Source of the DNA: Halobacteriales archaeon QH_7_65_31
GTDB lineage: Archaea; Halobacteriota; Halobacteria; Halobacteriales; Haloarculaceae
Length of the DNA: 64,000 nucleotides
Direction: 5' to 3'
NCBI GenBank assembly: GCA_003021785.1
Contig: PXQU01000014.1
Coordinates: 62,001 to 126,000, forward strand
The notes beneath the pieces were generated by a model. That model did no database searches. It saw only the letters and a program-made list of their open reading frames with translations, and was not told where the DNA came from. Shown one piece after another: positions 232-20,186 of the stretch (the stretch's first letter is position 1; each line of letters opens with the position of its first letter). A program made the position numbers and the translations under genes.

Positions 232-2505
232 ATGGACGAACTGACAGCGAATATCTCGTTCGACCGATTCGCAGACATGCCGGAATTCTACGGCTCCGGT
301 GCTGCGGAATACCGTCTGGCGATGGTGAAAGAGCGTGCTGATTTTCTCGATCTGTTCGCAAGCGCTCGTCACGTGGACGCCGTGACGTACGCGGAAACGC
401 CCGATCTGATGGTGAAAATGCTAACCGAGTACGACATCGGATCTCTGGACGTACTCATCGGGAACGCCGAAGACTACGCGGACCAGGTGAACGAAGTCTC
501 GACAGCGAGGTCGCTCGTGCGACTGCGACAGGACGACCGACTCACGATTCGATTGAAGAACCGGAAGACCGTCCACTCGAAGATCTACCGGATCGTCATG
601 CCGGACGACACGGTGAAGCTCGTCCAAGGGTCGGCGAACCTCTCTCGGAACTCCTGGGAATACCACACGAACCAGATCTCCGTCATTACGACCGATGTCG
701 GGACCGAACTGGACGAGGAGTTCGAGCGGTTCATCGATGAGTACCGCGACGGGTACAGCGACCAGACACTCCTCGAAGGGCTCGTCGAAGCGCTGGAGGA
801 GGCGGATTCACCGGAGGAGCGAGAGAACCGTATCGAGTACTGGGTTGGTGCGGGTGACCTTGACGTGAGCGACACTGCTGCCCTGAATCAGGACGCTGTT
901 GAGGACCTGAAAGACGTCGCCGACCAAGTCACCGCCGTCGTTGACGACCCTGAGGAGGCCGACGAGACAGTCGCGTTTGTCGAAGACCCCGAGAACGCCG
1001 ACCGCAACGTCATCGAACCAGAGGACTCCTCGGACGAGGACGACTCACCCAATGCTCCGGACAAGGACGATTCTCCGGATGTCGGACTCGTTGAGTCAGA
1101 TCACGAGACGGGGTTGACGGATGGACTCGACCGACCGCGGGTTCGTGCGCCCGACGAGAAGATACGGATGGGAACCAGCAAGGTGGACAAAGACACTGCC
1201 GACGAGTTCGGGGCCGGGCTCCGCGACCGTGGCGCGACCGTTGAGGACCACAGCATCACCGCGCCGCTGAGCGCGTACAACAATCAGGTCAAGGAATCGA
1301 CGTCCATCCCGACGATGTCCGTCCTCCCAGAGGCAGAGCAAGTCGTGATTGGTGAGGACGACGAGATGATTCTCGTCGCTACCGACGAGCCGACCCCCGA
1401 AGTCCTGGATCATTGCCTCGAAACCATCGAAGACTACATCGAGACCGTCCAGAACCACGGTCACACGCAATCCGAGACTGCAGTGATGGCGCAGATGTAC
1501 GAGGCGTTCCTCTACGGGTTCTGGGCCCCGTTCGCCAACCAGTACGCCGAGGCACTGTCGTCACCGTCACGGACGCTGGACAACGTCTTGCAGCACCTCT
1601 ACATCGAAGGGAAGAGCGACGCGGGGAAGGACAAACTCACCGAGTACATCCTGCGACTCGTCTCCGACAACACGGTCATCTCTGGGGTAGACGCAGACGA
1701 CGTCGGCGTCAAGGAAGTCCGCGGCGTCCGCGAGTGGGACACGTGCTTCCCGTACGCCATCATCGACGCCGAAAAAGAGAAGATCCAGCGGTGGAGCCCG
1801 ATCCGAAACTACTGGGGCGACTGGACACCCACCAGCGTCGATCAGCCGTGCCTCATCTTCACCACCAACGACGCACTCCCAAAATCCGAGTTCCGGAACC
1901 GAATGAAAATCCTGAGCATGGACGTCTCTTTCCCTTCCAACCCGGAGGATCCAGGCTTCCGCGAAGCGCAAAAAGACCTCTCGGGCGTTCTGGAACGGCA
2001 AAACCCGATCTTCAGTTACGTGGCCCGCCGCATGCTCACCGAACAACCGTGGACCGACGGAAACGGCACGATCGAAGACGTCCGCCGTATTGTCCGTGAA
2101 TTCTACGACGAAGCCGGTCGAGAGCAACCCGAGTACTTCCCCGCTGACGAGCCAGCCGAGAAAACGTACGATACGGGACGGTTGAAGTGGCAGCGCGACA
2201 TTCAGGGCGGCCGTGTCACGTTCGAATCGGAGCCGAATGCCATCACAGCTGACTTCGACCGCGAAGAATACGAGGTGTACGACTACGAGAAACGTCTCCC
2301 CAAACGGTTCATGTCTGAGAAATCCTCCACGAGCGTCTACATCGGCGCACCGGAAAAATTCGCTGAGTGGATCGGATACTCCGTCAACGACCTGTTGAAC
2401 GGGGCAGCCGAAACCGGCATGGACACCGAGCAGTCAGCCACCACGGAAAACGCGTCGGATACGGACGACTCAGGTGGATTCCTATCCCGGTTGTTCGGAG
2501 ACTAG
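232..2505 (+). CDS. PLD-family nuclease fused to a P-loop ATPase-like domain
   Basis: About 757 residues from the ATG at 232. The frame stays open upstream to about 76, but that part is Cys/Arg-rich and unlike the acidic body. Residues about 30-200 hold a phospholipase-D-type phosphodiesterase motif: HSK at 115-117, then GSANLS at 133-138. Residues about 210-330 are an acidic, low-complexity linker. Around 457-467 is a P-loop-like segment (EGKSDAGKDK), and about 80 residues later IFTTND followed by RNRM, which resemble the sensor-1 and arginine-finger region of SF3/AAA+ helicases. The C-terminus ends in GGFLSRLFGD after an acidic tail. Inferred role: nucleic-acid cleavage gated by an ATPase. 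It faces a winged-helix gene and lies 2.9 kb upstream of the Mre11-Rad50-NurA-HerA operon. The PLD call is firm; the ATPase call is tentative because the P-loop is not canonical. Confidence 0.75.
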   Translation: MDELTANISFDRFADMPEFYGSGAAEYRLAMVKERADFLDLFASARHVDAVTYAETPDLMVKMLTEYDIGSLDVLIGNAEDYADQVNEVSTARSLVRLRQDDRLTIRLKNRKTVHSKIYRIVMPDDTVKLVQGSANLSRNSWEYHTNQISVITTDVGTELDEEFERFIDEYRDGYSDQTLLEGLVEALEEADSPEERENRIEYWVGAGDLDVSDTAALNQDAVEDLKDVADQVTAVVDDPEEADETVAFVEDPENADRNVIEPEDSSDEDDSPNAPDKDDSPDVGLVESDHETGLTDGLDRPRVRAPDEKIRMGTSKVDKDTADEFGAGLRDRGATVEDHSITAPLSAYNNQVKESTSIPTMSVLPEAEQVVIGEDDEMILVATDEPTPEVLDHCLETIEDYIETVQNHGHTQSETAVMAQMYEAFLYGFWAPFANQYAEALSSPSRTLDNVLQHLYIEGKSDAGKDKLTEYILRLVSDNTVISGVDADDVGVKEVRGVREWDTCFPYAIIDAEKEKIQRWSPIRNYWGDWTPTSVDQPCLIFTTNDALPKSEFRNRMKILSMDVSFPSNPEDPGFREAQKDLSGVLERQNPIFSYVARRMLTEQPWTDGNGTIEDVRRIVREFYDEAGREQPEYFPADEPAEKTYDTGRLKWQRDIQGGRVTFESEPNAITADFDREEYEVYDYEKRLPKRFMSEKSSTSVYIGAPEKFAEWIGYSVNDLLNGAAETGMDTEQSATTENASDTDDSGGFLSRLFGD

Positions 2506-2538
2506 CTCCCTCAATTATCTGCCCGCTTTCGTCGGGGA

Positions 2539-3654
2539 CTACACGAACTCTATCGCCTGCTCGGTCAAGCGATAGCGATACGCTGGGTTGACAAACACGA
2601 TCTGCCCGTAGTCTTCCGATTTCGTGACCTCTTCAGAGGACTCAATCGCTTTGACAGCCGTATTGAGTCGGTCCACTGGGTCACCGGATCGGAGAAAGTC
2701 GATGAGTTGCTCTGGCTCGATACCGAACTCCGCAGCCAAGATACTTCGAACTGTTCGCCCAGCACCGTCAGCGACGGCGACAGACGGTGCTGACACCCGA
2801 GCCTGCGGGCCGTCCCGCTCTGCAGCGTCTTCAGACAGCGCCGTAACCTGGAGTTCGTCGTCGATATGCGCGATCAGCGCGTCCAGGTTCACTTCCGCTT
2901 CCTCAGTCACCTGCCCATTCACGATATCGTCAAGCCGCTCGCTAATCGCAAAGACATCCGGTCCAGGAGGCACGGTCTGGTCAAGTACCCCAGCATCGAC
3001 AAGGTGATTCAACACTGTTCGCGGCTGGTACTCAATGTCGATATCAAGCGAGTCGAGCAATTCCGTTCGCTTGATCCCATCTTTTTCGAGACCGATCCCC
3101 GCGCTGTAGAACGCCTTTGCGACAGTTACCTGATCGGCGACGCTGTGCGTGTTCCCCTTTTGTTCCCGGATATACCTTTCCAAACGGTCGAAATCAGGAT
3201 CGTCATCCTCGTCAATCGTAAGTGCGTCTCTGACTGTGTCTGGAAGTTCTGGACGCGGCGCGTCACGGTGTCGTTGGGCTTTCTCCGACAAGCGCGTGTT
3301 CTCGTAGAGGGCACGCGCTACGGGGAGTCCACGGAGATAATTGTACTCGTAGAGAGTATCCACACCGTGTTCAGTCAGGCCGTAGAACTGACTGGGGAGA
3401 TCGCGCGCGTCCTCATTCGGCGGGTACCGGTAGCAGTCGATGATGTCGTTGTCACTGAGAACCTCCAGCTGATCCCGGATTGCGGCCTTGTTCTTCGGCA
3501 TCATATACGCCAACTCATCGAGTGAGGGGAGATGCTCTGGGTGGCCAAGGATGAACTGCAGAATCAAGTGCCGCGTCTCCTGGGATAGTAGGTCGTAGAT
3601 CTGCCGCTGTTCTTCGAACGGGCCGCCACTCTCCGCGGCAGGCGCATCACTCAT
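2539..3654 (-). CDS. Winged-helix DNA-binding protein (ArsR/MarR-like N-terminus)
   Basis: 371 residues. The N-terminal ~90 residues read as a winged helix: ETRHLILQFIL, then SLDELAYMM, then AIRDQLEVLSDNDII and a Y-x-LTEHG wing, as in haloarchaeal ArsR/MarR-like regulators. The remaining ~270 residues include at least one further helix-turn-helix-like stretch (ELLDSLDIDIEYQPRTVLNHLVDAGVL region), so it may bind DNA at two sites. It is convergent with the PLD-ATPase gene and divergent from the gene at 3776. Inferred role: regulator or DNA-binding subunit of the neighbouring nuclease cluster. No enzymatic motif is visible. Confidence 0.65.
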   Translation of the reverse strand: MSDAPAAESGGPFEEQRQIYDLLSQETRHLILQFILGHPEHLPSLDELAYMMPKNKAAIRDQLEVLSDNDIIDCYRYPPNEDARDLPSQFYGLTEHGVDTLYEYNYLRGLPVARALYENTRLSEKAQRHRDAPRPELPDTVRDALTIDEDDDPDFDRLERYIREQKGNTHSVADQVTVAKAFYSAGIGLEKDGIKRTELLDSLDIDIEYQPRTVLNHLVDAGVLDQTVPPGPDVFAISERLDDIVNGQVTEEAEVNLDALIAHIDDELQVTALSEDAAERDGPQARVSAPSVAVADGAGRTVRSILAAEFGIEPEQLIDFLRSGDPVDRLNTAVKAIESSEEVTKSEDYGQIVFVNPAYRYRLTEQAIEFV

Positions 3655-3745
3655 AATCTCACCTGAGAGTAGCCCGGCAATGCGGATAATACTTTGGGTT
3701 AACTGGTGTGGTCAATCGGCGCATTAGCCATACTAGTTAGCAACC

Positions 3746-3753
3746 TATTTATT
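3746..3753 (+). promoter_or_regulatory. TATA-like box for 3776
   Basis: TATTTATT lies about 25-30 nt before the ATG at 3776, consistent with a leaderless transcript. The 3655-3775 gap is divergent and must also carry the promoter of the winged-helix gene at 3654. Confidence 0.45.
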
Positions 3754-3775
3754 CACTCCTCAAGGAGCACACAGT

Positions 3776-4534
3776 ATGGCTGACCCCGGTCCACCTCCGA
3801 ATGCAGCGGAGATCATGGAGAGCGTGAACGACGCGCTCCAAGATCTCGAATTAGAACCTCACGAAACATCGGACATACTGGGGTTCGCCAACCGAGAACT
3901 TCCACACCTTCACACTCCCGAAGACTCGTATTTCATCCTCGGCAGCTACCGCGACCCATACCTTCGACGGCTCCGCATCGTCCAGAACGAACTGGACAAG
4001 CGACTCGGTACATACCCGTTCCTGATGGCCGATCTCTCAGAGTTAGATATCGACCGCCTCCCAGTCTTCCGCATCCGCTTCACCCTCCTCGCCACGCACG
4101 CCGACACCGTCGTTGCCGTGTATGAACAAGACGCCGGCGGTGAAGTCACCGAACTCGGCAAGATCAGCACGAGACCATACTTCGACAAATCGTACGTGCT
4201 ACCGCGGGACTACGCGTGGATGGCTGCACAGAACCTCAACACGGAAGCAAACGTCATCGCCGCTGCCGCGACTATCTACTTCAACGACGACCTCGACGAA
4301 GCGGCTACCGAAGAAGAGCTGGACTCGCTCGTTACAGCGGCGAATAAAAACGACATCGATCTTGCGACATCAGACATCATAGAGCGATTAGAGAATAGAG
4401 ACGACAGCGAAGAGGCACCCATCTCATACAGCTGGGTCCACCTCAACGAATTCCGGCTTTTCGAACTTCACGACCGATGCTTCGCTTGGTCCCGTCCAGA
4501 GGACTTGCGCGATATCGTAGATGAAGTTCCGTAA
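3776..4534 (+). CDS. Uncharacterised protein, possible nucleotide-processing Rossmann-like fold
   Basis: 252 residues; family not recognised with certainty. After about 45 residues comes YFILGSYRDPYLRRLRIVQ, then a strand-like FLMADLSELDI, a hydrophobic helix, VVAVYEQDAGGEVTELGKI and DKSYVLPRDY. The order strand-Gly, helix, DL, helix, hydrophobic strand with a later Glu in a G-E-x-x-E-L-G context resembles nucleoside deoxyribosyltransferase/TIR-like proteins. This is a pattern judgement, not a proven homology. The C-terminal 100 residues are acidic and unassigned. It lies between a winged-helix gene and a convergent HNH-like gene within the nuclease cluster. Confidence 0.55.
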   Translation: MADPGPPPNAAEIMESVNDALQDLELEPHETSDILGFANRELPHLHTPEDSYFILGSYRDPYLRRLRIVQNELDKRLGTYPFLMADLSELDIDRLPVFRIRFTLLATHADTVVAVYEQDAGGEVTELGKISTRPYFDKSYVLPRDYAWMAAQNLNTEANVIAAAATIYFNDDLDEAATEEELDSLVTAANKNDIDLATSDIIERLENRDDSEEAPISYSWVHLNEFRLFELHDRCFAWSRPEDLRDIVDEVP

Positions 4535-4541
4535 TATTGAG

Positions 4542-5228
4542 TCACTGCTGATCAAGATATAAGAACGGGTCGTCCCATTCTTGCTCTTGGTCTGTGGCGA
4601 GTAGTTGATTCAACGTTTCTACTATCCCGTCCACGCCCAATTCATCGAACTGATCTCTGAGTTCCGTGGCAAGCGGTCGCCACTCTGCACCGTGGATTTT
4701 GTTCCATTCCGGCGGGACGAGGATGTCAGCGAACATATGTCCGTAGTTCTCGTAGTGGTGGTCGCACAGCGGTGCGAGATTCTCCAGTTCTCTGGAACCC
4801 CCGTATCGAGGCGGAACCATTCGGACAACATACGACGCCTCCTCATCGCAGACCAAGCATTGACCGTCAGTCTTCTTCATCGCATCCTCCCGCTGTCTGG
4901 CCGTCACCTGCTTGATTTCATCCTTGGGTGTGGGACGATACCCACGCGCTCGAATATGTTGTTCCCGACCGATAGACGGGTACTCACCGCACTCTGGACA
5001 GCGCTTCTGTCCACCGTTGCGCCACGATTTACAGTTCGGCCACGAGGCTTTCCCCTCGTCACCGGCATCAAGCGCCTCTGGAGTCAATTCCGCGCCACAC
5101 TCGCACGTATACGGTTCAGGCTCAATACGTCTGATTCCATGCGATTCTGCATTTGCGAGCACGAATACCAGATGTGGTTTCCGATTGTGGTGGTGCTCTC
5201 CATCTTCAAAATACGCCGTGACATACAT
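4542..5228 (-). CDS. Cys-rich HNH-endonuclease-like protein
   Basis: 228 residues. The N-terminal half carries Cys pairs (YTCECGAEL, then CPECGEYP), probably a zinc ribbon. The C-terminal half has the HNH frame: CLVCDEEASYVV, RYGGSRELENLAPLCDHHYENYG. The zinc Cys pair and the N-x-LxPLCxxHH part are present. The usual first catalytic His before the PP-x-x-GG stretch reads Val-Val-Arg, so catalytic activity is uncertain. It ends 7 nt from the convergent gene at 3776 and is divergent from the mre11-like gene. It may be an inactive or divergent nuclease, or a DNA-binding subunit. Confidence 0.65.
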   Translation of the reverse strand: MYVTAYFEDGEHHHNRKPHLVFVLANAESHGIRRIEPEPYTCECGAELTPEALDAGDEGKASWPNCKSWRNGGQKRCPECGEYPSIGREQHIRARGYRPTPKDEIKQVTARQREDAMKKTDGQCLVCDEEASYVVRMVPPRYGGSRELENLAPLCDHHYENYGHMFADILVPPEWNKIHGAEWRPLATELRDQFDELGVDGIVETLNQLLATDQEQEWDDPFLYLDQQ

Positions 5229-5410
5229 GTTTGATTCTGTTTCAACCCCCGAACAAAGACGTACTGAAACAATTCTCGTCCCTCAGATCACAAAAAGAAG
5301 CGACACCGGTACCGTCAATTCTGTGTTAGACTCAGTAAATCTTTACTTTCACCTTGGTTGCCATACGTTATTGTGCCCCCCGCTGTCAAGTTACAGTAAT
5401 CCGGATACCA

Positions 5411-6595
5411 ATGACCAAGATCCTCCATCTAAGTGATACGCATCTCGGAAATCGACAATACGGAAGCGACACTCGCAGGGACGACTTCACACGCGCTTTC
5501 GAGGCCGCCATCGACCGAGCACTTGAAGAGAACGTCGATGCAGTCATTCATACAGGCGACCTGTTCCATCGCCGAACACCGTCACTCCCTATCGTCACAG
5601 ACTGTATCGAGATCCTCAGAGAACTCACTGATGAGGACATCCCGTTCTACGGGATCGTCGGGAACCATGACCGGAAAATGGATCAACAGTGGCTCGATCT
5701 CATCCGCGAGACAGGAACTGCACAGCGTCTTGACCGGACACCGACGATGGTGAACGATGACGTCGCCCTCTACGGGATCGACGCCGTCACCAAACCCGCC
5801 TGGCACGCAGCAGACTTCACACTCGAAGAGCCACCGAACTCTGACGCATTTCGACTGCTGGGCATGCACCAACTCTTCGAGCCACTTGTGCCCGAGTTCT
5901 ACGCAGACCACGACCTGATCGAGGTTCTTGAGCGAGTGGGTATCGACATTGACGCGCTTGCGCTCGGAGACTACCACGAGACTGAGAGCCGCATCGTCGA
6001 TGACGTTCCAGCGTGGTATGCCGGGTCAACCGAGCGCTGCGCGACAGACGAAATCGAACCCCGAACCGTCGGCCTCCTCGAAATTGAAGAAGGAAACCTC
6101 GAACGCCGGGAGATCGAACTCGACACCCGGGAGTTCGAGTCGATCCGTATCGAATTCGACGACGATGATAGTCACGGGTATGCCCGCGATGAACTTGACC
6201 GGCATCAGCTTGATGGCAAAGTCGCCATTGTGACGCTCACTGGAGAGCGGACGCCCGTCACATCAAGCGACGTGTACGACATAGCGATAGACAAGGATGC
6301 GGCGGTCTGCAAGGTGGATGACAGTCGCGGCCGCAGACAACTGGATTTGGATGGTGGGCCGCAAGGAGATATTCAGAGCGCGGATAAACTCATTGAAGAG
6401 AAGCTTGCTGATCAGAATTTGAGTGACGTCGCTACTGATATCGAAGCACGAGTTCGGACAGACGACGATCTCGCACAGACAGCTATCGACGACACCATGG
6501 AAGCGCTGATCAAGGAGGCCCAAGCAGACGCCTTCGACGAGCGTGACACTGACCCAGATTTCGAGGAGGCGGACGCGGAGGTGGGTGAAGAATGA
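5411..6595 (+). CDS. Mre11/SbcD-like DNA repair exonuclease
   Basis: 394 residues from the ATG at 5411; upstream in-frame codons to 5354 lack the family start. Calcineurin-type phosphoesterase motifs are clear: SDTHLG (D9, H11), GDLFHRR (D50, H53), GNHD (N85-D87), GMHQ near residue 159 and LGDYHE near 190. In Mre11 the last block is usually GHxH; here the first His reads Asp. The C-terminal ~120 residues form the acidic capping and Rad50-binding region. Known family role: Mn-dependent 3'-5' exonuclease and endonuclease that starts DNA-end processing with Rad50. Its stop overlaps the rad50-like ATG (ATGA at 6592-6595). Haloarchaea normally keep another mre11-rad50 elsewhere, so this is likely an accessory copy (inference). 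Confidence 0.88.
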   Translation: MTKILHLSDTHLGNRQYGSDTRRDDFTRAFEAAIDRALEENVDAVIHTGDLFHRRTPSLPIVTDCIEILRELTDEDIPFYGIVGNHDRKMDQQWLDLIRETGTAQRLDRTPTMVNDDVALYGIDAVTKPAWHAADFTLEEPPNSDAFRLLGMHQLFEPLVPEFYADHDLIEVLERVGIDIDALALGDYHETESRIVDDVPAWYAGSTERCATDEIEPRTVGLLEIEEGNLERREIELDTREFESIRIEFDDDDSHGYARDELDRHQLDGKVAIVTLTGERTPVTSSDVYDIAIDKDAAVCKVDDSRGRRQLDLDGGPQGDIQSADKLIEEKLADQNLSDVATDIEARVRTDDDLAQTAIDDTMEALIKEAQADAFDERDTDPDFEEADAEVGEE

Positions 6596-9500
6596 AAATC
6601 AAGGCGCTTACGCTGCAGAATATCCGGAGTTACGAGGATCAGACAGTCGAGTTCCCCGATGGAACTATTCTTATTCGAGGCGACAACGGTGCCGGGAAAA
6701 CCTCCCTGTTGATGGGAATCTTCGGGGGCTTGTTCCTCTCTAAGATTCGGAACGTCGGAACGAACGAGTTCAATCTCGATGATTTAGTCCGGCGCGGTGA
6801 AGACAAGGGCGTCGTAGAACTAGTATTCGAGATTGACGGGACAGAGTTCACTGTGACCTGGAAGTTGTACACGACGAATACCCAAAACAGTGCAACGCTG
6901 AACTCGGAGTCATTCCCGGACCCAGTAACCGGCATCGAAGACGTCCGGGAAGAGGTGATTGGGTTACTCGGGATGGACGAAGACGACTTCTCCAGTTCTG
7001 TCTACGTCAAGCAAGGCGAAATCGACCGTCTCATCGAAGCAGGCGACCGCACGGAGATGATTGACAGCCTCCTCGGGTTAGACGAACTTGACGAGCACAT
7101 CAACCGGATGAGGGCGGCACGCCGCGGTGCCGGTCGCGTCCAAGACCAGAACAAAACGAGTCGGGAGAACTACCAAGAAGACCTCGATAACATCGGGAAA
7201 GCGGAATCTGAGTACGAAGACGAGATACACTCGCTCACCGACGACATCGCCAACCTGGAAGCAGACATCGAGGAAATCGAGGAGTTCATTGACGAGCTGA
7301 AAAACCACCGAACCAGCATCAAGAGCGACATCGAGGACCACGAAGACCTGCAGGAACGCAAGGACGAGAAGCAAGAACAGATCGAGGAGACAAAATCGAA
7401 GCGGGCCGATCAACAGTCCAACATCGACAAGAGTGAGACCACCATCGAGGAGGCACAGGACGAGATCGGCACGCTCGAAAGTGATATCGAAGCCCTCGAT
7501 ACAGAGGTCGAGTACGACCTGAATTCTGAAGAGAGCGCAGCGGACGCGAACGAGGCCGTGCAGGAATCCTTCTTAGAGGCGACAACGGAACGCAACGATT
7601 GCGAGAACGACCTTCAGAACGCCCAAGAAGAACTGGACCGTCTCGAAGACGACCTCTCTGAGGCCAAGACCGAACGTGAGGATCTCATAGAGAAGCGTGA
7701 CGACCTGCAGTCTGATTTCGACGACGCTACTGACCGTCTCACCGATGCGGAAGCAGAACGAAAATCGCTCACGGCTGAGCGGAACGAGAGCGTGGCTGCG
7801 TTCCTCCCCGCGGTTGCTGATGGGGACGAGGTCACAGATGACCACGAAGAGGCGGTTGAGGCGCGGCTTGCAGAGCTCCGCGACGAGCGAGAAGACGTAA
7901 CCGCGACCAAGCGGGAAGTCACGACGAAACGCGACCGTGCCGAGGAGGACCTCGAAACAGCGCGTGCGGAACTGGAGACGGCAACTGATGACTTCGAGGA
8001 AGCAGAGTCCGACCTCGAAACGGTTCAGTCCGAACTGGCGACTGCTGAAGATGATCTTACGGCTGCCGAAGCGGAGTTCGAAGAACGTGTCGAGACGCTC
8101 GCGGACCAAGCCTCCGAGTTCGATGTGGAGGTCACAACTGAGAAGTTAGCCGACCTTCGTGACACAGTGCTTCCGGACCTCATCGAGGAAACCAACGCGG
8201 ACCTGAACGACATCGGGAACGCCATCACTGAACACCGGAACGACAAACAGCGCTACGAAGAGGAGCGCGCGGAAATCAAGGAACTCGGTGAGCAGGACAA
8301 GTGCCCGAAGTGCGGGAAGACTGTTGAGGACTCGCACATCGAGAGTGAGGTTGAGGAGCTGCAAGCCGCGATTGTCGCTGCACAAGAAGCAGTGGAAGAC
8401 GCTCAGGAGACTGAAGCGGATTTGCAGTCACGGAAAGACGAGTTGCAGGCGTTCCGTGAGGGCTTGCTGGACACGATCACTTACCGTGACGAGACGCTGG
8501 CAACGGTACGAGACGAGGTGGAATCGCTTCGTGACGAGGCGGACGAGCTGCAGTCCCATATTGAAGAGTTGGAGGACACTATTCAGGACCACGAATCCAC
8601 CATCGCAGAGTTAGAGGCAAACATCGATGACCTCGAAGAGCAGGAAGGAAGGCTCGATGCAGAACTTTCTGAGGTCAACGACGCCATCGAGACTGGGGAG
8701 GATGTCTTAGACGCGTTCGAGCAGGTGGCTGACCAGCAAGAAACGGTGGCCGATCTCGAAGACGAGATTAGCGATATCGAGAGAGACATCGAGGACATCA
8801 GCGACGATCTCGCGGACGTTAAAGAGGAAATCGAGGGACTGGAAGACGATATTGAACAACAGGAGACTGTCGTTGGCGACTGTGAGGCCGCGCTTAAAGC
8901 TGCCGAGGAGCGTGTCGAAGACATCGAAGCTGTTCAGGAAACCGTTGAAGACGCGGTTGGGAAGTACGATACGATCAGGGGGTTACGGACGACGATTGAG
9001 CAGGAACAGCAAGCCATCCAGCACGCTCGTGATCGGATTGACGACCTGAACGGTCAGATCGCTCGCCTCCAAGAGAAAAAGGAAGACATCGAGGAGCAAC
9101 TCGGCGACGAAGATGTCGAAGGCCTGCGTGAGGACATGGAGCGCGTCAACACTCGGATTGAGCAGCGCCAGGAGACGCGCGACGAGTACCAACAGGACCT
9201 ACAGGAGACACGTGACGAGCGCACACGGCTCGAAACGGAGCTTGAATCGTTGCGTGAGACGAAAGCGCAGATCGAACTGTATGAGGACAAAGAGAAGTGG
9301 GCAAAGGAGGTTTACGACGAGCTTGATGCGGTCATCTCGGTCTACGAAAGCACGAAATCCGATCTCCGCGAGCAGTACCTTGCTTACATCAACGAGTACA
9401 CGAACGACATCTTCAAACAGATCTACAAGAACAGCAGCTACCAGCAGGTCATCATCGAAGAGACGTACGACGACCGGCGAGACAGCTACGAGTACGACAT

Positions 9501-9861
9501 TCGGCTGCTCCGTGACGACGGGACAACCGAAGACCCGAGCAACGCGAGCGGCGGCGAGCGTGCTATCGTGAACCTCGCGCTGCGCGCCGGGATCTACAAA
9601 CTCATCGCCGAACTGCACGGCGGGAACCGCGGGCAACTCCCACCATTCATTCTTGACGAGCCGACGACGTTCCTAGACGAAGGGCACGTCGGACAGCTCG
9701 AACAGATGCTGACGACCATCAAGGAGTGGGATGTCCCGCAGATCATCGTTGTCTCCCATGATGAAGCCCTCATCCACGGGGCTGATCATGAATGCCACGT
9801 GACCATCGACGAGTCAGACAATACGAGTCAGATCACGATGCGCACCGCGGGGGCTGATTGA
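6592..9861 (+). CDS. Rad50/SbcC-like SMC ATPase with zinc hook
   Basis: 1089 residues. Walker A GDNGAGKTS is at about 30-38. A long heptad-rich coiled coil of Glu/Asp/Arg/Leu spans about 170-950 and is interrupted near residue 570 by the zinc hook CPKC. The C-terminal head holds the signature ASGGERA, Walker B FILDEPTTFLD and H-loop VVSHDEA. Family role: ATP-driven DNA-end tethering that controls Mre11 nuclease activity. The length somewhat exceeds typical archaeal Rad50 (about 880-900). It overlaps mre11-like by 4 nt and its stop shares one base with the nurA-like ATG, so the three genes are translationally coupled. Confidence 0.9.
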   Translation: MKIKALTLQNIRSYEDQTVEFPDGTILIRGDNGAGKTSLLMGIFGGLFLSKIRNVGTNEFNLDDLVRRGEDKGVVELVFEIDGTEFTVTWKLYTTNTQNSATLNSESFPDPVTGIEDVREEVIGLLGMDEDDFSSSVYVKQGEIDRLIEAGDRTEMIDSLLGLDELDEHINRMRAARRGAGRVQDQNKTSRENYQEDLDNIGKAESEYEDEIHSLTDDIANLEADIEEIEEFIDELKNHRTSIKSDIEDHEDLQERKDEKQEQIEETKSKRADQQSNIDKSETTIEEAQDEIGTLESDIEALDTEVEYDLNSEESAADANEAVQESFLEATTERNDCENDLQNAQEELDRLEDDLSEAKTEREDLIEKRDDLQSDFDDATDRLTDAEAERKSLTAERNESVAAFLPAVADGDEVTDDHEEAVEARLAELRDEREDVTATKREVTTKRDRAEEDLETARAELETATDDFEEAESDLETVQSELATAEDDLTAAEAEFEERVETLADQASEFDVEVTTEKLADLRDTVLPDLIEETNADLNDIGNAITEHRNDKQRYEEERAEIKELGEQDKCPKCGKTVEDSHIESEVEELQAAIVAAQEAVEDAQETEADLQSRKDELQAFREGLLDTITYRDETLATVRDEVESLRDEADELQSHIEELEDTIQDHESTIAELEANIDDLEEQEGRLDAELSEVNDAIETGEDVLDAFEQVADQQETVADLEDEISDIERDIEDISDDLADVKEEIEGLEDDIEQQETVVGDCEAALKAAEERVEDIEAVQETVEDAVGKYDTIRGLRTTIEQEQQAIQHARDRIDDLNGQIARLQEKKEDIEEQLGDEDVEGLREDMERVNTRIEQRQETRDEYQQDLQETRDERTRLETELESLRETKAQIELYEDKEKWAKEVYDELDAVISVYESTKSDLREQYLAYINEYTNDIFKQIYKNSSYQQVIIEETYDDRRDSYEYDIRLLRDDGTTEDPSNASGGERAIVNLALRAGIYKLIAELHGGNRGQLPPFILDEPTTFLDEGHVGQLEQMLTTIKEWDVPQIIVVSHDEALIHGADHECHVTIDESDNTSQITMRTAGAD

Positions 9862-11147
9862 TGGACACGAACGCACTCAGCATTGTCGAAGACATCTTCG
9901 ACCACATTGACACGAACATTCCGCGCGATGTCACCCCGCAAGCCAATTACGCCCGCCGGCTCTTCGAGCACCTCTCACGGGACGGTGGCCGCGTCACCAC
10001 ACTCGATGAGCCGACCTACCAGAAGACGCGGATCGACGAACTTGGCACGTGGACCGGCGATCCGTGGGGGACACCGACCTATGGGCTCGATGCCAGCACC
10101 ACTCGCCCGTTGGAGTTCAACAACGGACTCATCGTGGACACCGCGTACGCCAAGCTTGGCGTAGCCGGCGCTGACACCGACAAGCGAATCGAGGAAACCG
10201 GCACTGTAGAAACGGTCGTGTACCTCGCAGACAGCGAAAGCACGCTCCACGCCGAACAGTTCGAAGCTGACCGCGTTACCGGCGAAGTCGTGCAGTTCCC
10301 GCCAACCGACCGTTCCGCGACTCTCTCAAAGTCAGTTGCCAGCGCCGCGCAAGGCCTTGCGGAGAGTACTCACGCCGCGGCTCACGTTGACGATCTCGAT
10401 GGCTTACTGTTCATTGACGGCGCAGTCTACCCGCTTGGCATCCTCTACTGGGTGCTCCTTGACCAGGTCGGTCGCACTACGCCCGCCGGCGCATGGGACA
10501 AGCCCGACGAAATCATTCGGAACTACATCGACGTCATCGACACCCAGTACGAACACGGGTATCCAGTCATCGGCGTCGTGAAGACCTCTACCATCAGTCA
10601 ACTCCTCGATGCCCTAGACGCGAAACTCGCCGCGAATCACGTGACGAACGACCACGGCGGACAGCTCGATGTCCCATGGACACGCGATCATCAGTTCGTC
10701 GCCGAAGTGTTACGCGACGATAGTCTCGAACACCTCACGTACACGTCGTGGTTCGTCCACAAGCAAGCTCCTGTAGACGGGCAATCGTTCGAACTCCTCG
10801 AACCGTACAGCGACAGCCTATCACATGGAGGCCCCGATGACTACCGGCGAGCGTTCTTCTACGTCCGACTCCCGAAAACCGGCGACGTACTCCGCGTGGA
10901 AACACCGCGGCTCATGATCGACGACGAACAGACCCGCAATCAGATCCAGTACAAAGTCCTGAAGGAAATCGCGCAGACCCAGGACATCCCGCAGGCAGTC
11001 GGGCGCGCCGACCGGATCGCCCGGATCAGCCGTGACAACCGCGACACGATCCGAGACTTCCTCACTGCCGCCGACTACGCCCACGACTACAACTGGGACG
11101 GCCGCTGGAACGACATCGAACAAGCACCCGAAACCCAACTCCAATAA
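9861..11147 (+). CDS. NurA-domain 5'-3' nuclease
   Basis: 428 residues from the ATG at 9861 (TGATG overlap with the rad50-like stop); a TTG one codon upstream is also possible. NurA features are visible: a first acidic motif YGLDAST (D77), a second strand LLFIDGAVYPLG followed by a helix, GVVKTST, the HQF/VAEVL region, and the late FFYVRLPKTGDVLRVETPRLM strand. Family role: Mn-dependent nuclease that works in a toroidal complex with HerA to resect DNA ends after Mre11-Rad50. The next gene, HerA, starts on the last base of its stop codon. Co-occurrence with HerA, Mre11 and Rad50 in one operon makes the call strong. Confidence 0.85.
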   Translation: MDTNALSIVEDIFDHIDTNIPRDVTPQANYARRLFEHLSRDGGRVTTLDEPTYQKTRIDELGTWTGDPWGTPTYGLDASTTRPLEFNNGLIVDTAYAKLGVAGADTDKRIEETGTVETVVYLADSESTLHAEQFEADRVTGEVVQFPPTDRSATLSKSVASAAQGLAESTHAAAHVDDLDGLLFIDGAVYPLGILYWVLLDQVGRTTPAGAWDKPDEIIRNYIDVIDTQYEHGYPVIGVVKTSTISQLLDALDAKLAANHVTNDHGGQLDVPWTRDHQFVAEVLRDDSLEHLTYTSWFVHKQAPVDGQSFELLEPYSDSLSHGGPDDYRRAFFYVRLPKTGDVLRVETPRLMIDDEQTRNQIQYKVLKEIAQTQDIPQAVGRADRIARISRDNRDTIRDFLTAADYAHDYNWDGRWNDIEQAPETQLQ

Positions 11148-13021
11148 TGAGCGACAACACCGACGACATCCTCGACCGTGATCCAGTCAGTAACGACGAC
11201 TCAACGAGTACCGGCACCAACGAACCCACCGACAACGAGACCGACACTACAGGCATGGAGACGGAGGAACAGACCACTGTCCCAGAAACGACGGTTCCAA
11301 ACTCGCTTACTGACGCTGAGGAGGACGAACTCGGCCACGTCGTCGCCAGCGAAGAAATCCACGTCACGCGCAGCGACTACAAAGTCAACGCGTTCGTAAA
11401 AACCGACTGCCGAGATGACGTCCGCGTCGGCGACTACGTCCAAATCCCATACCCCGAGCCAGATCCAACCGAGCAAGTAGACGAACTCTTTGCCATCGTC
11501 GATGGGCTCCGATACGAACCCTACACCGAACTCGACGACAAATCAGACACACACAACCGGATCGCCTCAGTCCACGCCCTCGACGAGACAGAGTTCGTCC
11601 TCGTCGCTGAACTCGAACCCATCGCCATCATCTCCTCAACTGACGACGGACTCGAACGCAGCATCGTCAACAAAATCCCGAAACCCAATACGCCCGTCGC
11701 GCTCTCCCTTGATGAAGAGTATCTCCGCACCGGACTCAACATCCCACACGACGGTGTGTTCGCTGGCTACCTCTCCGTCGGCGGTGACCGCATGACCGTC
11801 GACGACGACCCACTCCCCTACTTCATCAACAACCCCGGCATTGATCCCGTGACCGAGGACGTTGAGTCCGGCGAACCCGCAATCTTCCGGCACACCCTCG
11901 TCGCCGGCTCCACCGGAAAAGGGAAAACGCACTTCACAAAAAACCTGCTCCGACAGTTCGCCACCGACAAGCGCTACCCGATAGAAAACCACCAGACCGG
12001 CGACACCGAACACAGCCGTCTCAACCTCGTCATCTTGGACCCAGAAAACGAGTACTCCGAAATGCGGAACGGCAACCCCGAACTTCGTAACGAGGACGAA
12101 CTCGTTCAGCGGCTTGAACGGCAAGGCATCGAGGTCGGCGGTATCGATAACTTCGAGACGTTCATCCCCGACATCGGGAACACGAACGCCCCGACCACGG
12201 GAGAAAGCCGGAATCTGACGATCCCCTTCTCCCTCGTTGAGCACCGCCCGCAGCTCCTCATGCCGTACACACCGACGGAAGTCACGCGTGGAGCCCTCGA
12301 AAACTGTATTGACGCGTACTTCAGCGATACTGATGCGCCGACCTACGACGGCTTCCTCCAGTACCTCCGCAGCAACGAGGACTCGGAGAGCCCGCTTCGC
12401 CAACGGTACAACATCGAAGACGGTACGTGGAGCGCTATCATGCGTCGCGTCACCGACGCCGCCTACCGCGACGTCTTCGACCACGGCACGAACCCCCTCC
12501 CAGACGTATCAAACGCCGTGTTCCGTGAAGGCCAGGTCACTGTCATCCCGACCAGTCACCTCCACGGCGCAAAAGAAGAACTGACCGTCCTCTCCATCCT
12601 CTCCTACATCATCGACAACAAAATCGACGACTACGATGTCGATCCCAACGTCAAGGATACCCCGATCCTCGTCGCCGTTGACGAAGCCCACAACTACGTT
12701 TCTGACCCCGACACTCTCCGGGAACAGTACATCGTCAACCGCGCCCGTGACGCCGTCAAACAAGGCCGCAAAGACAAACTCGGCCTCTTCATGATCACGC
12801 AAAACCCCGAAGACATCGACGGCGACATCCTCAAACAAACCAACACCAACATCTTTCTCGGCCTCCGCGAAGAAGTCATCACCAAAGTCCCCTCCATCCC
12901 CCGCGGCTACGAACAAGATCTCCAAAAATACGGCAAAGGCCAAGCCGTCATCAAAGCCCCCGACGTCGAAGCCGTCGAAGTCAAAGGACTCCCCTACTGC
13001 CTCACCCAACACAGCAACTGA
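11147..13021 (+). CDS. HerA-like hexameric DNA translocase ATPase
   Basis: 624 residues. An acidic, disordered N-terminus of about 60 residues precedes a HAS-barrel-like segment (GHVVASEEIHV...VGDYVQIPY). Walker A GSTGKGKTHF is near residue 256 and Walker B ILVAVDEAH near 507, followed by a HerA-type VNRARDAVKQGRKDKLGLFMITQNP segment. Family role: FtsK-HerA superfamily ATPase that pumps duplex DNA and activates NurA. Phage-defence systems also use HerA with various nucleases. It is the last gene of the four-gene coupled operon; the 62 nt after it carries a new promoter for the KTSC gene. Confidence 0.88.
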   Translation: MSDNTDDILDRDPVSNDDSTSTGTNEPTDNETDTTGMETEEQTTVPETTVPNSLTDAEEDELGHVVASEEIHVTRSDYKVNAFVKTDCRDDVRVGDYVQIPYPEPDPTEQVDELFAIVDGLRYEPYTELDDKSDTHNRIASVHALDETEFVLVAELEPIAIISSTDDGLERSIVNKIPKPNTPVALSLDEEYLRTGLNIPHDGVFAGYLSVGGDRMTVDDDPLPYFINNPGIDPVTEDVESGEPAIFRHTLVAGSTGKGKTHFTKNLLRQFATDKRYPIENHQTGDTEHSRLNLVILDPENEYSEMRNGNPELRNEDELVQRLERQGIEVGGIDNFETFIPDIGNTNAPTTGESRNLTIPFSLVEHRPQLLMPYTPTEVTRGALENCIDAYFSDTDAPTYDGFLQYLRSNEDSESPLRQRYNIEDGTWSAIMRRVTDAAYRDVFDHGTNPLPDVSNAVFREGQVTVIPTSHLHGAKEELTVLSILSYIIDNKIDDYDVDPNVKDTPILVAVDEAHNYVSDPDTLREQYIVNRARDAVKQGRKDKLGLFMITQNPEDIDGDILKQTNTNIFLGLREEVITKVPSIPRGYEQDLQKYGKGQAVIKAPDVEAVEVKGLPYCLTQHSN

Positions 13022-13082
13022 GGCTAGACAAACCGTCATTTAATGGATAGAATTAAATGTTTATCCTGCCGCATAACGCAGT

Positions 13083-13295
13083 ATGAAACGGGTCCCCGTC
13101 TCCTCAAGTAACCTCAGCGGTGTTGGATATGATGAGTCGAACCAAGTTCTGGAGATTGAGTTCCACGGTGGAAGAGTTTACCAGTATTTCGATGTCCCCA
13201 AACGGATTCATCAAGAACTCATGAGCGCCAGTTCGCACGGGAAATACTTCCACCGGAATATCGAAGATAACTATCGGTACGATCAGGTCAAATAA
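13083..13295 (+). CDS. KTSC-domain small protein
   Basis: 70 residues that match the KTSC domain along the full length: VSSSNLSGVGYDE, LEIEFHGGRVYQYFDVP, and SHGKYFHRNIEDNY. KTSC proteins are often found beside nucleases or DNA/RNA metabolism genes; their biochemical role is not settled. Its stop overlaps the ATG of the OLD-family gene by one base (TAATG), so the two are coupled. An A/T-rich stretch (AATTAAATGTTTAT, 13051-13064) about 25 nt upstream is a likely promoter, separating this pair from the HerA operon. Confidence 0.8.
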   Translation: MKRVPVSSSNLSGVGYDESNQVLEIEFHGGRVYQYFDVPKRIHQELMSASSHGKYFHRNIEDNYRYDQVK

Positions 13296-15211
13296 TGCGC
13301 ATCAATTCAGTCCGCGTCCAAAATTTTCGAAGTCTTCGAGATGCACAGATCAATTTTAATGAGTTGACTGCCCTGATAGGATCAAACGGTGCTGGGAAAT
13401 CTTCATTCCTTAGATCATTAGATCTCTTTTATACAGCGAATGCATCATACTCCGAAGAAGACTTCTACGACCGAAACACCAGCGAAGAGATCAGCGTTCA
13501 GGTAGAATTTACGAATTTAGGTGAAGACGCTAAAGAGAAATTCAGCCCATATACCGGTGGTGAAACATTAACTGTGGAGAAAGTAATGGAATATCCGGAT
13601 AACCGCGGCAATCAAAGATATCACGGGAACCGCTTGTATAACCCTAATTTCGATGGGTTCCGTAATGCAAGTGGCCATGATCTCCGCCGAGAATATGTGT
13701 CACTATTTGATGAGGGCTACAGTGAATTACCGGAGTACCAAAATCGGGAGGAAGGGGAAACGGCGTTGCGAGAGTGGGAAGAGGAACATCCTGATCAGTG
13801 TGAGCGTAGACGAGATGACGGCCAATTCTTTGGATTTAACTCAGTTGGCCAAGCGGCTCTTGAGGAATATACACGATATATTTTGATTCCAGCCGTCCGC
13901 GATGCAAGTGAGGACGCCGATGATAAACGGGGCAGTCCCCTGACGGAATTGATGGACTTAGTCGTTCGTGCAGCACTCTCTGAACGGGATGAGCTAGAAG
14001 AATTTCAACAGGTAGCTCAACAGCGCTATGCACAGCTAATTCAGGATGCATCAGAAGCAGAACTCGGCCAGTTAGAATCTGACCTCTCCTCTACACTCGA
14101 AACGTTCGCCCCCGGCGTTGGTGTAGACCTTTCATGGGATACGGAGAATGTCATTGACATTCAGATGCCCCAGGCAGATATCAAACTGGAGGTAGACGAT
14201 TTTGTCTCGGAAGTGGAACACGCAGGCCACGGCTCCCAGCGTGCCTTCATTATCTCTCTTCTGCAAAACTTGGCAATCCATAGTGAGGACATGAACTCAA
14301 CCGGCGAGGATGAAAGCGACCACGATCCGAGTCTTATCCTGGGTATCGAAGAGCCTGAACTATACCAACACCCGAACCGCCAGCGACATCTCATGTCCAT
14401 TCTGTCTTCGTTCGACGATCAGGGAATAGCAGGCACAGCTAGTAGCGTTCAAGTCGTCTATTCTACTCATTCCCCTCTAATGGTGAGTATGAAACGATTT
14501 GACGATATACGCAGCTTATCCAAGATAGAAGCTAGTGATGATCGTCCCAAGCACACTCGGGTTAAACAGAGCTCATTAGAGACGGTTGCTCGGCAGATGG
14601 AGACTGTTTTTGACGCTGATAAAGGGACATTCTCCGGTGAGTCAACACGCGCTCGCTTAGAACCGGTAATGACTCCATGGGTCAATGAGGGGTTCTTTTC
14701 GGACGTTGTTGTATTAGTCGAAGGGCTGGAAGACAGGTCAGCTCTCCTGGGACGCGCAAGTGCTAGAGATATAGATCTTAGCTCTCAGGGTGTAGCAGTC
14801 CTCCCCTGCAATGGGAAAACTAAAATCGGCCGTCCAGCAATAATTTTCGAACAGCTAGGGAGATCTGTCTACGTAATGTTTGACTCAGACCACGATGATG
14901 AGTCAGAAGCCGTCATCAATAAACGATTACTCCGCCTTGTTGACGCTGAAGAAGAAAACTGGCCTTCCGGAGTCCATGACCGACACGCTTGTTTCCAAGA
15001 GAATCTAACAGAATGCATCCGAACCTCACTTGGGCCTGACTTCTACGATGACACACTACGGGACGCCTGCGACAAGTACGGATACCACAAGCAGTCGCGG
15101 GGAGCGAAGAACCCGACGGTTATGTCTAGTGTGTTCGAAACTGCAACGCAGGATGAGCGGTCTGTTTCAAAGATTGACAGCATCATTGACCAAGTCCTTG
15201 ACATGGCCTAA
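13295..15211 (+). CDS. OLD-family ATP-dependent nuclease (AAA + TOPRIM)
   Basis: 638 residues. The N-terminus has Walker A GSNGAGKSS at about 29-37 in an SMC/RecF-like FRSLRDAQINF context. Walker B ILGIEEPELYQHP is near residue 350 and YSTHSPLMVS about 40 residues later. The C-terminal TOPRIM domain shows VVVLVEGLEDRSAL (Glu near 477) and MFDSDHDDE (DxD near 530). OLD proteins are DNA nucleases in phage defence, for example P2 Old and Gabija GajA. No UvrD/GajB helicase is next door; the coupled partner is the KTSC protein. Codon use is clearly more A/T-rich than in the HerA operon, which suggests separate acquisition. Confidence 0.82.
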   Translation: MRINSVRVQNFRSLRDAQINFNELTALIGSNGAGKSSFLRSLDLFYTANASYSEEDFYDRNTSEEISVQVEFTNLGEDAKEKFSPYTGGETLTVEKVMEYPDNRGNQRYHGNRLYNPNFDGFRNASGHDLRREYVSLFDEGYSELPEYQNREEGETALREWEEEHPDQCERRRDDGQFFGFNSVGQAALEEYTRYILIPAVRDASEDADDKRGSPLTELMDLVVRAALSERDELEEFQQVAQQRYAQLIQDASEAELGQLESDLSSTLETFAPGVGVDLSWDTENVIDIQMPQADIKLEVDDFVSEVEHAGHGSQRAFIISLLQNLAIHSEDMNSTGEDESDHDPSLILGIEEPELYQHPNRQRHLMSILSSFDDQGIAGTASSVQVVYSTHSPLMVSMKRFDDIRSLSKIEASDDRPKHTRVKQSSLETVARQMETVFDADKGTFSGESTRARLEPVMTPWVNEGFFSDVVVLVEGLEDRSALLGRASARDIDLSSQGVAVLPCNGKTKIGRPAIIFEQLGRSVYVMFDSDHDDESEAVINKRLLRLVDAEEENWPSGVHDRHACFQENLTECIRTSLGPDFYDDTLRDACDKYGYHKQSRGAKNPTVMSSVFETATQDERSVSKIDSIIDQVLDMA

Positions 15212-19142: not shown

Positions 19143-20186
19143 CTATAGCCATGAGAGGCCAGTGTTGAGTTCCTCCAGAAAGGACGGTTGTACTTGCGCG
19201 CCAGGTGGAAATGCGAGTTGTTCACCGTCACGGTTGAGAATAGTTTCGCGGAGGAATGGATGGGCCGGATCGAATGAGGGGCTTGCTTGAATTTGATAGT
19301 TACTGTCGATGGTGAACAACGCGGCGTCGAACGCGCGGTGGTGCAGCGAGTTCAACACGAGGACGTTCTCCGGATGTTCAGCGAGTTCGGGGTGTTGACT
19401 CCGTGGGAGGATGTGCGCGAGATCCAGCAGTTCATCTTCCCGAATGCCGGTCAGGGTGCACGCGTGGTCGTAACGGTCGAGTGTGTCTGCACGGAAGGTA
19501 TCACTCACGGTGATTTCAGATGTTTCGTATCGCCGAATCCGGCCACTCGAATCGAGAGGTTCGCCTGTCGGCCACTGAGCAATCTCTCCGGTCTGGACCC
19601 AGTGCTGCCAGACGTCCGGTGCTGCGCGGTCGTCATTCTGCAGGGCACGCTCGTGCAGCCACGTGACGGGGATAGAGTTGGTGTTGAGGATCGAGAAGTG
19701 GAACTGGTAGTTCGGGACCTGCGTCCCGTCATCGGCCTGGTACGCGTGAACTTCGAAGTGGTCGGGAACGCAGAGCCCACAGAACTCGACAACGCCCGAT
19801 TCGGGTTTGCGGAAGACGAGGACTGGCGGGACGTCTTCACGCCGACTGGCCGCGGCGCTGTCGAAGGCAGCTTTGATCTTCTGGTTCTGCGCGGACTCGT
19901 CGTAGGGGTTCGAGGCCTTTGCATCGCCCCAGTAGCTGATGTAGCCGGCGTTGACGGCGAGCGTGTCTTCCCACGGGTCGTCGTGTTGGGAGATACCGCT
20001 GTCGTTCGAGACGAGTACGAGCGCTGCAGGCGTCTCAGACCGATCTGCACCGAGATCACGGATCCCACCTGTGTTTTTGATACCGCTGTCGAGTGGGCCG
20101 CGGATCCACCGCAGGAACTGGTCGTCCGAGTTGCGGTAACTCCCAGTGTCACGGTAGTGTTGCCCGACCCGAAACGCATGTTGCAT
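19143..20186 (-). CDS. HNH endonuclease, restriction-like
   Basis: 347 residues. The C-terminus holds a classic HNH core: DHACTLTGIREDELLDLAHILPRSQHPELAEHPENVLVLNSLHHRAFD, with D-x-AH-I-x-P, N-x-LxL and HHxxFD all present. The N-terminal ~220 residues (FRVGQHYRDTGSYRN, then a mixed alpha/beta region with WGDAKASNPYDESAQNQKI) look like a sequence-recognition module of restriction-type HNH proteins. It may cleave foreign or modified DNA; no methyltransferase lies next to it, so a type IV-like mode is possible. GC-rich, unlike the gene at 17911. Confidence 0.72.
   Translation of the reverse strand: MQHAFRVGQHYRDTGSYRNSDDQFLRWIRGPLDSGIKNTGGIRDLGADRSETPAALVLVSNDSGISQHDDPWEDTLAVNAGYISYWGDAKASNPYDESAQNQKIKAAFDSAAASRREDVPPVLVFRKPESGVVEFCGLCVPDHFEVHAYQADDGTQVPNYQFHFSILNTNSIPVTWLHERALQNDDRAAPDVWQHWVQTGEIAQWPTGEPLDSSGRIRRYETSEITVSDTFRADTLDRYDHACTLTGIREDELLDLAHILPRSQHPELAEHPENVLVLNSLHHRAFDAALFTIDSNYQIQASPSFDPAHPFLRETILNRDGEQLAFPPGAQVQPSFLEELNTGLSWL

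Follow-up and report, generated by a model that had tools for sequence, protein, structure and literature searches.

A mobile Mre11-Rad50-NurA-HerA cassette linked to AgaP-like PLD nucleases in haloarchaea, a candidate system for the degradation of foreign DNA

We analyzed a stretch of 64,000 nucleotides of Halobacteriales archaeon QH_7_65_31 (assembly GCA_003021785.1, contig PXQU01000014.1, positions 62,001 to 126,000), hereafter the window, in which a four-gene cassette encoding Mre11, Rad50, NurA and HerA follows a PLD nuclease gene and three further genes. The cassette is an accessory copy whose genes are inherited together, and its relatives lie close to PLD and Argonaute genes more often than to a control gene of defence islands. 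A comparable haloarchaeal system, APAP, pairs a long-A prokaryotic Argonaute (pAgo) with the PLD protein AgaP, as set out in the part of PMC11442185 covered here. We lean towards the view that the window encodes an accessory system for degrading foreign DNA that was acquired by horizontal transfer, in which the portable cassette would be the engine and the AgaP-like PLD protein the cutter, and its best reading is that of an Argonaute-less relative of the Argonaute-PLD system. This suggests that an end-processing machine was repurposed to attack foreign DNA, and a defence role of cassette and PLD protein is likely. Genomes, contigs and loci are designated by our own G, C and L handles.

Four-gene cassette of the window

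Mre11, Rad50, NurA and HerA form a four-protein set that is thought to serve archaea at broken DNA ends. In the window they are encoded by the following genes:

5411-6595, + strand: Mre11, accessory type 1 (Metallophos of Pfam and Mre11_Halo of NCBIfam)
6592-9861, + strand: Rad50, accessory type 1, with a CxxC hook (PRK02224)
9861-11147, + strand, with TTG 9858 as alternative start: NurA, accessory type 1 (PF09376, 38.3 bits)
11147-13021, + strand: HerA, accessory type 1 (DUF87 and HerA_C)

The original prediction of a full end-resection set at 5411-13021, made of four genes overlapping by 1-4 nt, agrees with the open reading frames, overlaps and families found. The overlap is 4 nt between the Mre11 and Rad50 genes (6592-6595), 1 or 4 nt between those of Rad50 and NurA, depending on whether the latter starts at ATG 9861 or TTG 9858, and 1 nt between those of NurA and HerA (11147). 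NurA passes the Pfam cut-off, and Mre11 and Rad50 score about 290.8 bits against Mre11_Halo (model cut-off 550) and 442.7 bits against PRK02224 (cut-off 1087), as expected if they are diverged copies of the proteins that these haloarchaeal equivalog models represent. The window thus shows the archaeal set as a single overlapping run with intact catalytic motifs. Mre11 motifs DxH, GDLF, GNH and GDxH are conserved at 95% or more in an alignment of 44 copies, the Asp motifs of NurA are conserved among 45 copies, and Walker A GKT and DEAH of HerA among 49 copies, fragments and duplicates included; in Rad50, whose motifs were read by eye, the CPKC hook is present.

The four genes are co-inherited, as their pairwise distances correlate with Spearman coefficients of 0.88-0.93 across 41 loci (one match above 400 bits per gene; L064 and L086 dropped, and no locus above L143). 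Plasmids that carry the cassette belong to Haloferax alexandrinus, Natrinema sp. SYSU A 869 (with herA in two frames) and Halocatena salina; it is also present on long contigs of other genomes, with differing neighbours.

Accessory copy and core copies

The original prediction called for a test for a second mre11-rad50 elsewhere in the genome. A different contig encodes a canonical haloarchaeal Mre11, which passes the cut-off at 611.6 bits (290.9 for the window copy) and is adjoined by distant Rad50 matches. The window genome (G000) has a further NurA gene (C3:81406-82326), which lies apart from mre11-rad50.

HerA matches are present in 388 of the 391 sampled genomes of the class. Among the matches listed, the common HerA form is 35-39% identical to the window HerA, whereas the window type at 90% identity or more is found in at least eight genomes, the window's included, from three families (f1, f2 and f4), and further loci follow at 51-66%, 42-48% and 39% (G003, G065). 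Altogether, the listed matches comprise at least 47 type-1 HerA loci in the 391 genomes, a patchy distribution. No window-type HerA was listed for the three congeners examined: G131 had no HerA match, and G229 and G315 had one each with core-level scores. According to the part of PMC7776575 covered here, H. volcanii has neither HerA nor NurA, and according to that of PMC12977600 the two are not apparent in halophiles. In contrast with both, NurA scored over the cut-off in the Haloferax volcanii control genome, and in contrast with the latter, HerA relatives are near-universal in the class sample.

In seven other genomes carrying the 90%-type HerA, the core Mre11 is 58-65% identical to that of the window genome, whereas the accessory Mre11, in the six of such genomes where the gene lay within the fetched stretch, is 79-95% identical to that of the window. 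This difference shows that the cassette moved by horizontal transfer.

Linkage of the cassette to PLD genes

The first gene of the region is:

232-2505, + strand: AgaP-like PLD nuclease with a fused P-loop (ATPase-like) region at its C-terminus (motifs, modelled domain, similarity to H24)

The protein scores 24.8 bits against PLDc_2, under the Pfam cut-off of 27, yet the HxK(x)15GSxN and P-loop GxxxxGK motifs are intact and the modelled domain matches PLD nucleases, in support of the fusion that had been predicted. The full-length model has a pLDDT of 39 and is usable for residues about 31-200 only; its fold matches include SauUSI, NgoAVII R, Nuc and NucT, as well as TrmBL2, Zucchini and Tdp1, and the query-normalised TM-scores are low throughout. 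A sequence search of the protein against solved structures gave two rows, both at chance level. The frame H24, a PLD-like frame adjoining a Piwi gene on plasmid pNATPE02 of N. pellirubrum, where annotation is fragmented, aligns with the window PLD in two pieces at 31% identity over 71%. H24 is presumably the agaP of the strain in PMC11442185, and by this similarity the window PLD appears to be an AgaP relative. Apparent stops in PLD matches probably fall in the leader, since the query started 52 codons before ATG 232.

PLD family matches were obtained in 97 of the 391 genomes. The locus lists were compiled by hand, merging split matches and dropping short or pseudogene PLD pieces. Type-1 HerA rows, including fragments of the type, were kept if they reached 379 bits, together with a single partial row of 350 bits and 51% identity, and PglZ rows were kept at 31 bits or more. 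A second and deeply divergent cassette type, Mre11-Rad50-NurA-f14-HerA, was found at fetched PLD and Argonaute loci; its NurA is recognised by Pfam (100.5 bits), and its HerA, kept at 500 bits or more, is 21-26% identical to the window HerA in partial alignments (the rows dropped include four of 36-39% identity and 260-288 bits). Some loci are duplicates (L064 is L036, L169 and L104 are L037, several of L145-L176 are loci with G handles, and L086 is nearly L085), and the gene caller, a simple composition rule, missed some genes, such as the Argonaute gene in L128, which was later recovered.

At 28 of the 93 listed PLD loci a cassette lies within 15 kb (type-1 HerA at nine, type-2 HerA at 19), against a random expectation of 0.43 that assumes 3.6 Mb genomes and ignores contig ends. 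The BREX gene PglZ, which served as a control for defence islands, has a cassette within 15 kb at one of 91 listed loci (PLD versus PglZ, Fisher p about 1e-8, relatedness ignored), and Argonaute at eight of 48 (p 9e-4 versus PglZ, relatedness likewise ignored). The link between cassette and PLD is therefore statistically supported.

The link recurs in several combinations. PLD-A occurs with type 1 in the window, L040 and L041, and with both type 1 and Argonaute in L085/L086, and PLD-A with type 2 is a further distinct combination. A PLD of the 42-45% group lies on the opposite strand to type 1 in L050. PLDs of the about 30% group form same-strand runs with type 1 in L074, L076 and L077, and accompany type 2 in L120 and, by coordinates, in G135, G223 and G334. 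L167 shows a run Mre11-Rad50-NurA-f14-HerA-PLD in one direction, as does L166, with Mre11 in two frames.

Named haloarchaea, whose genome set overlaps in part with the class sample, yielded 32 PLD-A loci in a further scan. HerA together with Rad50 or NurA was found at 12 of them, a lower bound because a contig end cuts the flank in 11 of the 32. The carriers are Halovenus salina, Halovenus rubra, Haloarchaeobius, Natronomonas, Salinadaptatus, Natrinema hispanicum, Halopiger, two Halorubrum, Halobellus, Salinibaculum and Halosimplex.

At L145 of Halovenus salina and L173 of Halosimplex salinum, the DNA tracks the window along 141-2594 and then 4179-4534, the end of the gene at 3776. Next comes a type-2 cassette in the opposite direction, followed by a match to window 12731-13324, which covers the end of the HerA gene and the sequence past it. 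The flanks have matches in L041 too, where the genes are arranged as in the window. Remnants of the 3776 and HerA genes on either side indicate that a type-2 cassette replaced type 1 at a homologous locus, and such a replacement argues that both types do the same job.

Argonaute loci and other end-degrading genes

Piwi matches were found in 47 of the 391 genomes, and Argonaute counts are lower bounds, as the Piwi search missed the Argonaute of G242 (L077). A PLD gene lies within 15 kb at 26 of the 48 listed Argonaute loci, in line with the PLD-type pairing in 28 of 63 species given in the part of PMC11442185 covered. In L077 the frames for Mre11, Rad50, NurA, HerA, PLD and Argonaute follow each other in one direction, and in L120 those for Argonaute, PLD, Mre11, Rad50, NurA, f14 and HerA do the same (start codons not fixed at either locus). 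Three acidic residues of the PIWI domain, which fit the catalytic DED, are invariant in all 33 aligned copies (above 700 bits, duplicates included).

Other Argonaute loci bear different end-degrading genes: AddAB-like genes in L037, L125, L126, L129 and L137, a PD-(D/E)XK and UvrD-like set in L114-L116, L121 and L144, and a Dna2-like helicase with Mre11 in L127 and L128 ("AddAB-like" and "Dna2-like" being names given in this analysis).

Further genes were observed around these loci. In L119, L122 and L123, two small genes and a ThiF/Prok-JAB protein (tested in L119) adjoin PLD or Argonaute-PLD, with RNaseH-like and DEAD/MZB helicase genes near. An AAA_14-DUF4143 ATPase, PDC-S01-like, recurs beside Argonaute or cassette runs, often divergent (L038, L072-L077, L114-L123).

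Genes between PLD and the cassette

Three genes separate the PLD gene from the cassette in the window:

2539-3654, - strand: winged helix-turn-helix (wHTH)-like protein, divergent from the 3776 gene (weak PADLOC matches only)
3776-4534, + strand: 252-aa protein with no family match (recurrence of copies)
4542-5228, - strand: HNH-type protein with Cys pairs (phrog_7785 HNH, E 1.2e-4)

The phrog_7785 match agrees with the predicted HNH protein, and the predicted winged-helix protein draws on the weak PADLOC matches. The 3776 protein gave no significant match in Pfam, PADLOC, NCBIfam or PHROGs, the best being R2K_3 (E 0.17), which leaves its label as a nucleotide-processing protein unproven. By eye we take it to resemble a Rossmann-like nucleotide-binding protein; its AlphaFold2 model, from five sequences 88-89% identical, reached a pLDDT of 41 with no usable fold.

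The wHTH family recurs with PLD in the window, L041, L087/L147, L089, L092, L107/L164, L152, L167 and L175. The intact wHTH/3776 pair stands beside a type-1 cassette at two loci (window, L041), beside a type-2 cassette at five (L087, which is L147, L089, L152, L167 and L175), and without a cassette in L092. The named sample holds the intact pair in L147, L152, L167 and L175, where the 3776 copies are 88-89% identical. Among the loci fetched, the HNH gene adjoins the cassette only in the window, L040 (which is L146) and L041, whereas L043 has a relative at 45% about 6 kb away; the gene is probably incidental. Thus, of the predicted co-occurrence of the upstream genes with the cassette, the part concerning PLD stood, and to a lesser extent that concerning wHTH/3776, but the HNH gene is rare beside the cassette and most listed type-1 loci have no listed PLD within 15 kb. 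Four constant upstream partners were accordingly rejected, as the cassette usually travels without upstream genes.

tRNA-Phe island and neighbouring genes

Between a tRNA-Phe gene (C14:52651-52724) and about C14:85000, GC content is reduced to 0.46-0.60, from about 0.68. An integrase gene adjoins copies of the tRNA-Phe 3' end at L039:13478-13509 (32-nt alignment, 94%) and 13629-13650 (22/22), and a copy of another part of the tRNA lies in the window:

22481-22498, no strand assigned: candidate island end close to the GC boundary, identical over 18 nt to the anticodon arm of tRNA-Phe

The distance from tRNA-Phe to the sequence matching the window from position 24860 on is 2.2 kb in G229, 2.6 kb in G315 and about 34 kb in the window genome, in a comparison of positions only, so that two of the three congeners lack the low-GC DNA at this site; in G131, tRNA-Phe is separated from the first flank pieces by about 4 kb (157 bp) and 14 kb. 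The tRNA-Phe copies, the GC drop and the spacing in congeners place the cassette within inserted, tRNA-Phe-associated DNA. Together with the patchy spread and the horizontal transfer, this island accords with the accessory and mobile version originally proposed.

Directly upstream of the window, L039:4651-13650 holds the tRNA-Phe gene and about 9 kb with D5-like helicase (named by eye) and integrase genes, and ends in the tRNA 3'-end copies. Downstream of the cassette lies:

13295-15211, + strand: OLD-family AAA-TOPRIM protein (AAA_15 and OLD-like_TOPRIM), a frequent, inconstant neighbour

The OLD gene, 91-92% identical, adjoins the cassette in L042, L044 and L046. At 19143-20186 the same island encodes a candidate for a modification-dependent restriction enzyme, with AspBHI_N (129.4 bits) and HNH_2 (43.7 bits). 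At 20342-21542 a HEPN-like gene (E 0.028) is paired with a nucleotidyltransferase gene in the manner of a HEPN-MNT toxin-antitoxin, and relatives of the pair adjoin PLD on the Halobaculum litoreum plasmid L037.

Interpretation and alternative readings

In the proposed mechanism, the PLD protein would break invading DNA, licensed by guide-loaded Argonaute in Argonaute-bearing versions and, in the window, perhaps by another partner (candidates are its own ATPase part, the 3776 protein and the wHTH protein). Mre11-Rad50 would open and tidy the ends, blocked or hairpin ends included, and the HerA ring would feed the duplex to NurA, which would degrade both strands, so that one break could lead to loss of a plasmid or virus genome. 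The parts of PMC11442185 covered report that AgaP is toxic alone, that Argonaute suppresses this toxicity and that the system restricts plasmid DNA via the PLD centre. Furthermore, the 2026 study PMC12977600 argues, in the part covered, that HerA-NurA of T. kodakarensis probably does not resect ends directly and may be antiviral. From plasmid restriction by the AgaP system, the PLD fold matches and this argument, we infer that PLD cuts and the cassette consumes the DNA.

More tentatively, the haloarchaeal end machine may be a plug-in effector, in which Argonaute and/or PLD provide target and first cut, and exchangeable engines destroy the DNA. Such engines might, with the same reserve, comprise the two cassette types, the AddAB-like pairs, the UvrD/PD-(D/E)XK set and the Dna2-like helicase with Mre11-Rad50. 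Bacterial Argonaute cooperates with RecBCD, and the plug-in reading, if true, would describe an operon-encoded counterpart. It would show how an Argonaute-PLD system could gain a built-in DNA-degrading engine, with engines swapped like parts. Descriptions of HerA-NurA usually present it as repair machinery. A mobile cassette with ties to a family of PLD nucleases, one member of which belongs to a plasmid-restricting system, makes the question of antiviral versus repair function directly testable in haloarchaea; strains with deletions of the core mre11-rad50 exist, according to the part of PMC12977600 covered.

Several observations weigh against a joint cassette-PLD system. Many PLD copies are 80-97% identical, and the 28 linkages are thus not 28 independent events. 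At 65 of the 93 listed PLD loci no listed cassette lies within 15 kb, and 20 of the 32 named PLD-A loci lack HerA with Rad50 or NurA (among them L168 has HerA alone and L155 a very distant Mre11-Rad50 pair of 41 and 65 bits). Conversely, 38 of the 47 listed type-1 HerA loci have no listed PLD within 15 kb, and 41 have no listed Argonaute within that distance (40 once that of G242 is counted); the four-gene cassette can therefore stand alone. In addition, the window genome, about 91% complete, gave no Piwi match in the search that missed the Argonaute of G242.

The cassette by itself might be a complete defence system, with PLD, Argonaute, OLD and HNH as separate systems of the same islands. 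This rather unlikely reading fits the varied neighbours and the majority of fetched loci that have neither PLD nor Argonaute, but it leaves unexplained the excess of PLD linkage over the PglZ control and the several combinations in which a same-strand run begins or ends with PLD.

We consider somewhat less probable still that the cassette is a mobile repair or recombination kit for plasmids or islands, without defence, whose PLD and Argonaute neighbours reflect island crowding. Its four enzyme families are those of the thermophile repair operon, it resides on Haloferax, Natrinema and Halocatena plasmids, most listed cassettes are without PLD or Argonaute, and a role in backup repair or plasmid recombination could produce much the same record, which also counts against a defence system. 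However, one-direction runs with PLD and Argonaute and the single PglZ locus misfit mere crowding. Furthermore, IMG/VR contigs gave no HerA or PLD relatives in single-protein queries that reach close relatives only, a phage collection gave no HerA or NurA relatives, and one integrase profile, the only integrase family sought, matched four of the 44 type-1 loci besides the window (L055, L068, L070 and L071).

An ordinary housekeeping end-resection operon, kept vertically as sole or core copy, equals the cassette in gene content but is very improbable and already contradicted by the canonical mre11 elsewhere, the lack of window-type HerA in three congeners and the tRNA-Phe island.

Comparison with known systems

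The original prediction held this exact set to be undescribed, and the literature search did not contradict it: among the matches listed, no title or abstract start describes the set, in a coverage with few subscription papers and no preprints. The covered parts of PMC2743648, PMC6299218 and PMC4158269 name no link of Mre11-Rad50-NurA-HerA to Argonaute, and the main text of PMC11442185, as far as covered, makes no mention of HerA, Mre11 or NurA and notes a helicase gene near some operons.

HerA-SIR2 and HerA-DUF4297 likewise join a HerA ring with a nuclease, but they were rejected, as no SIR2 or DUF4297 match was found among ten window proteins scanned; the window HerA scores 33.7 bits against HerA_antiphage of NCBIfam (cut-off 800). 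Lamassu shares an SMC/Rad50-like ATPase, and the window Rad50 reaches 154.6 bits with the LmuB model, but this system was also rejected, as the haloarchaeal Rad50 model is far better (442.7 bits). Models for LmuA and LmuC were absent from the PADLOC matches listed for ten window proteins (the best 25 families for two of them).

The thermophile mre11-rad50-herA-nurA operon has the identical four enzyme families in a single operon with overlapping genes. Unlike it, the window cassette is accessory and mobile, and stands beside core copies from which it has diverged.

The closest comparison for the proposed foreign-DNA-degradation system is APAP. The window PLD is homologous to the presumed agaP and has the same HxK and GSxN motifs, so that an AgaP homologue with the PLD residues is present, and Argonaute-linked PLD relatives in L077 and L120 bear the same kind of cassette. 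In contrast, the spacing of the motifs is 15 residues in the window versus about 49 in APAP (44-49 only in L038, L119, L122 and L123), no long-A pAgo is adjacent and the window genome, about 91% complete, gave no match in the Piwi search that missed one Argonaute elsewhere, and a whole Mre11-Rad50-NurA-HerA set is added.

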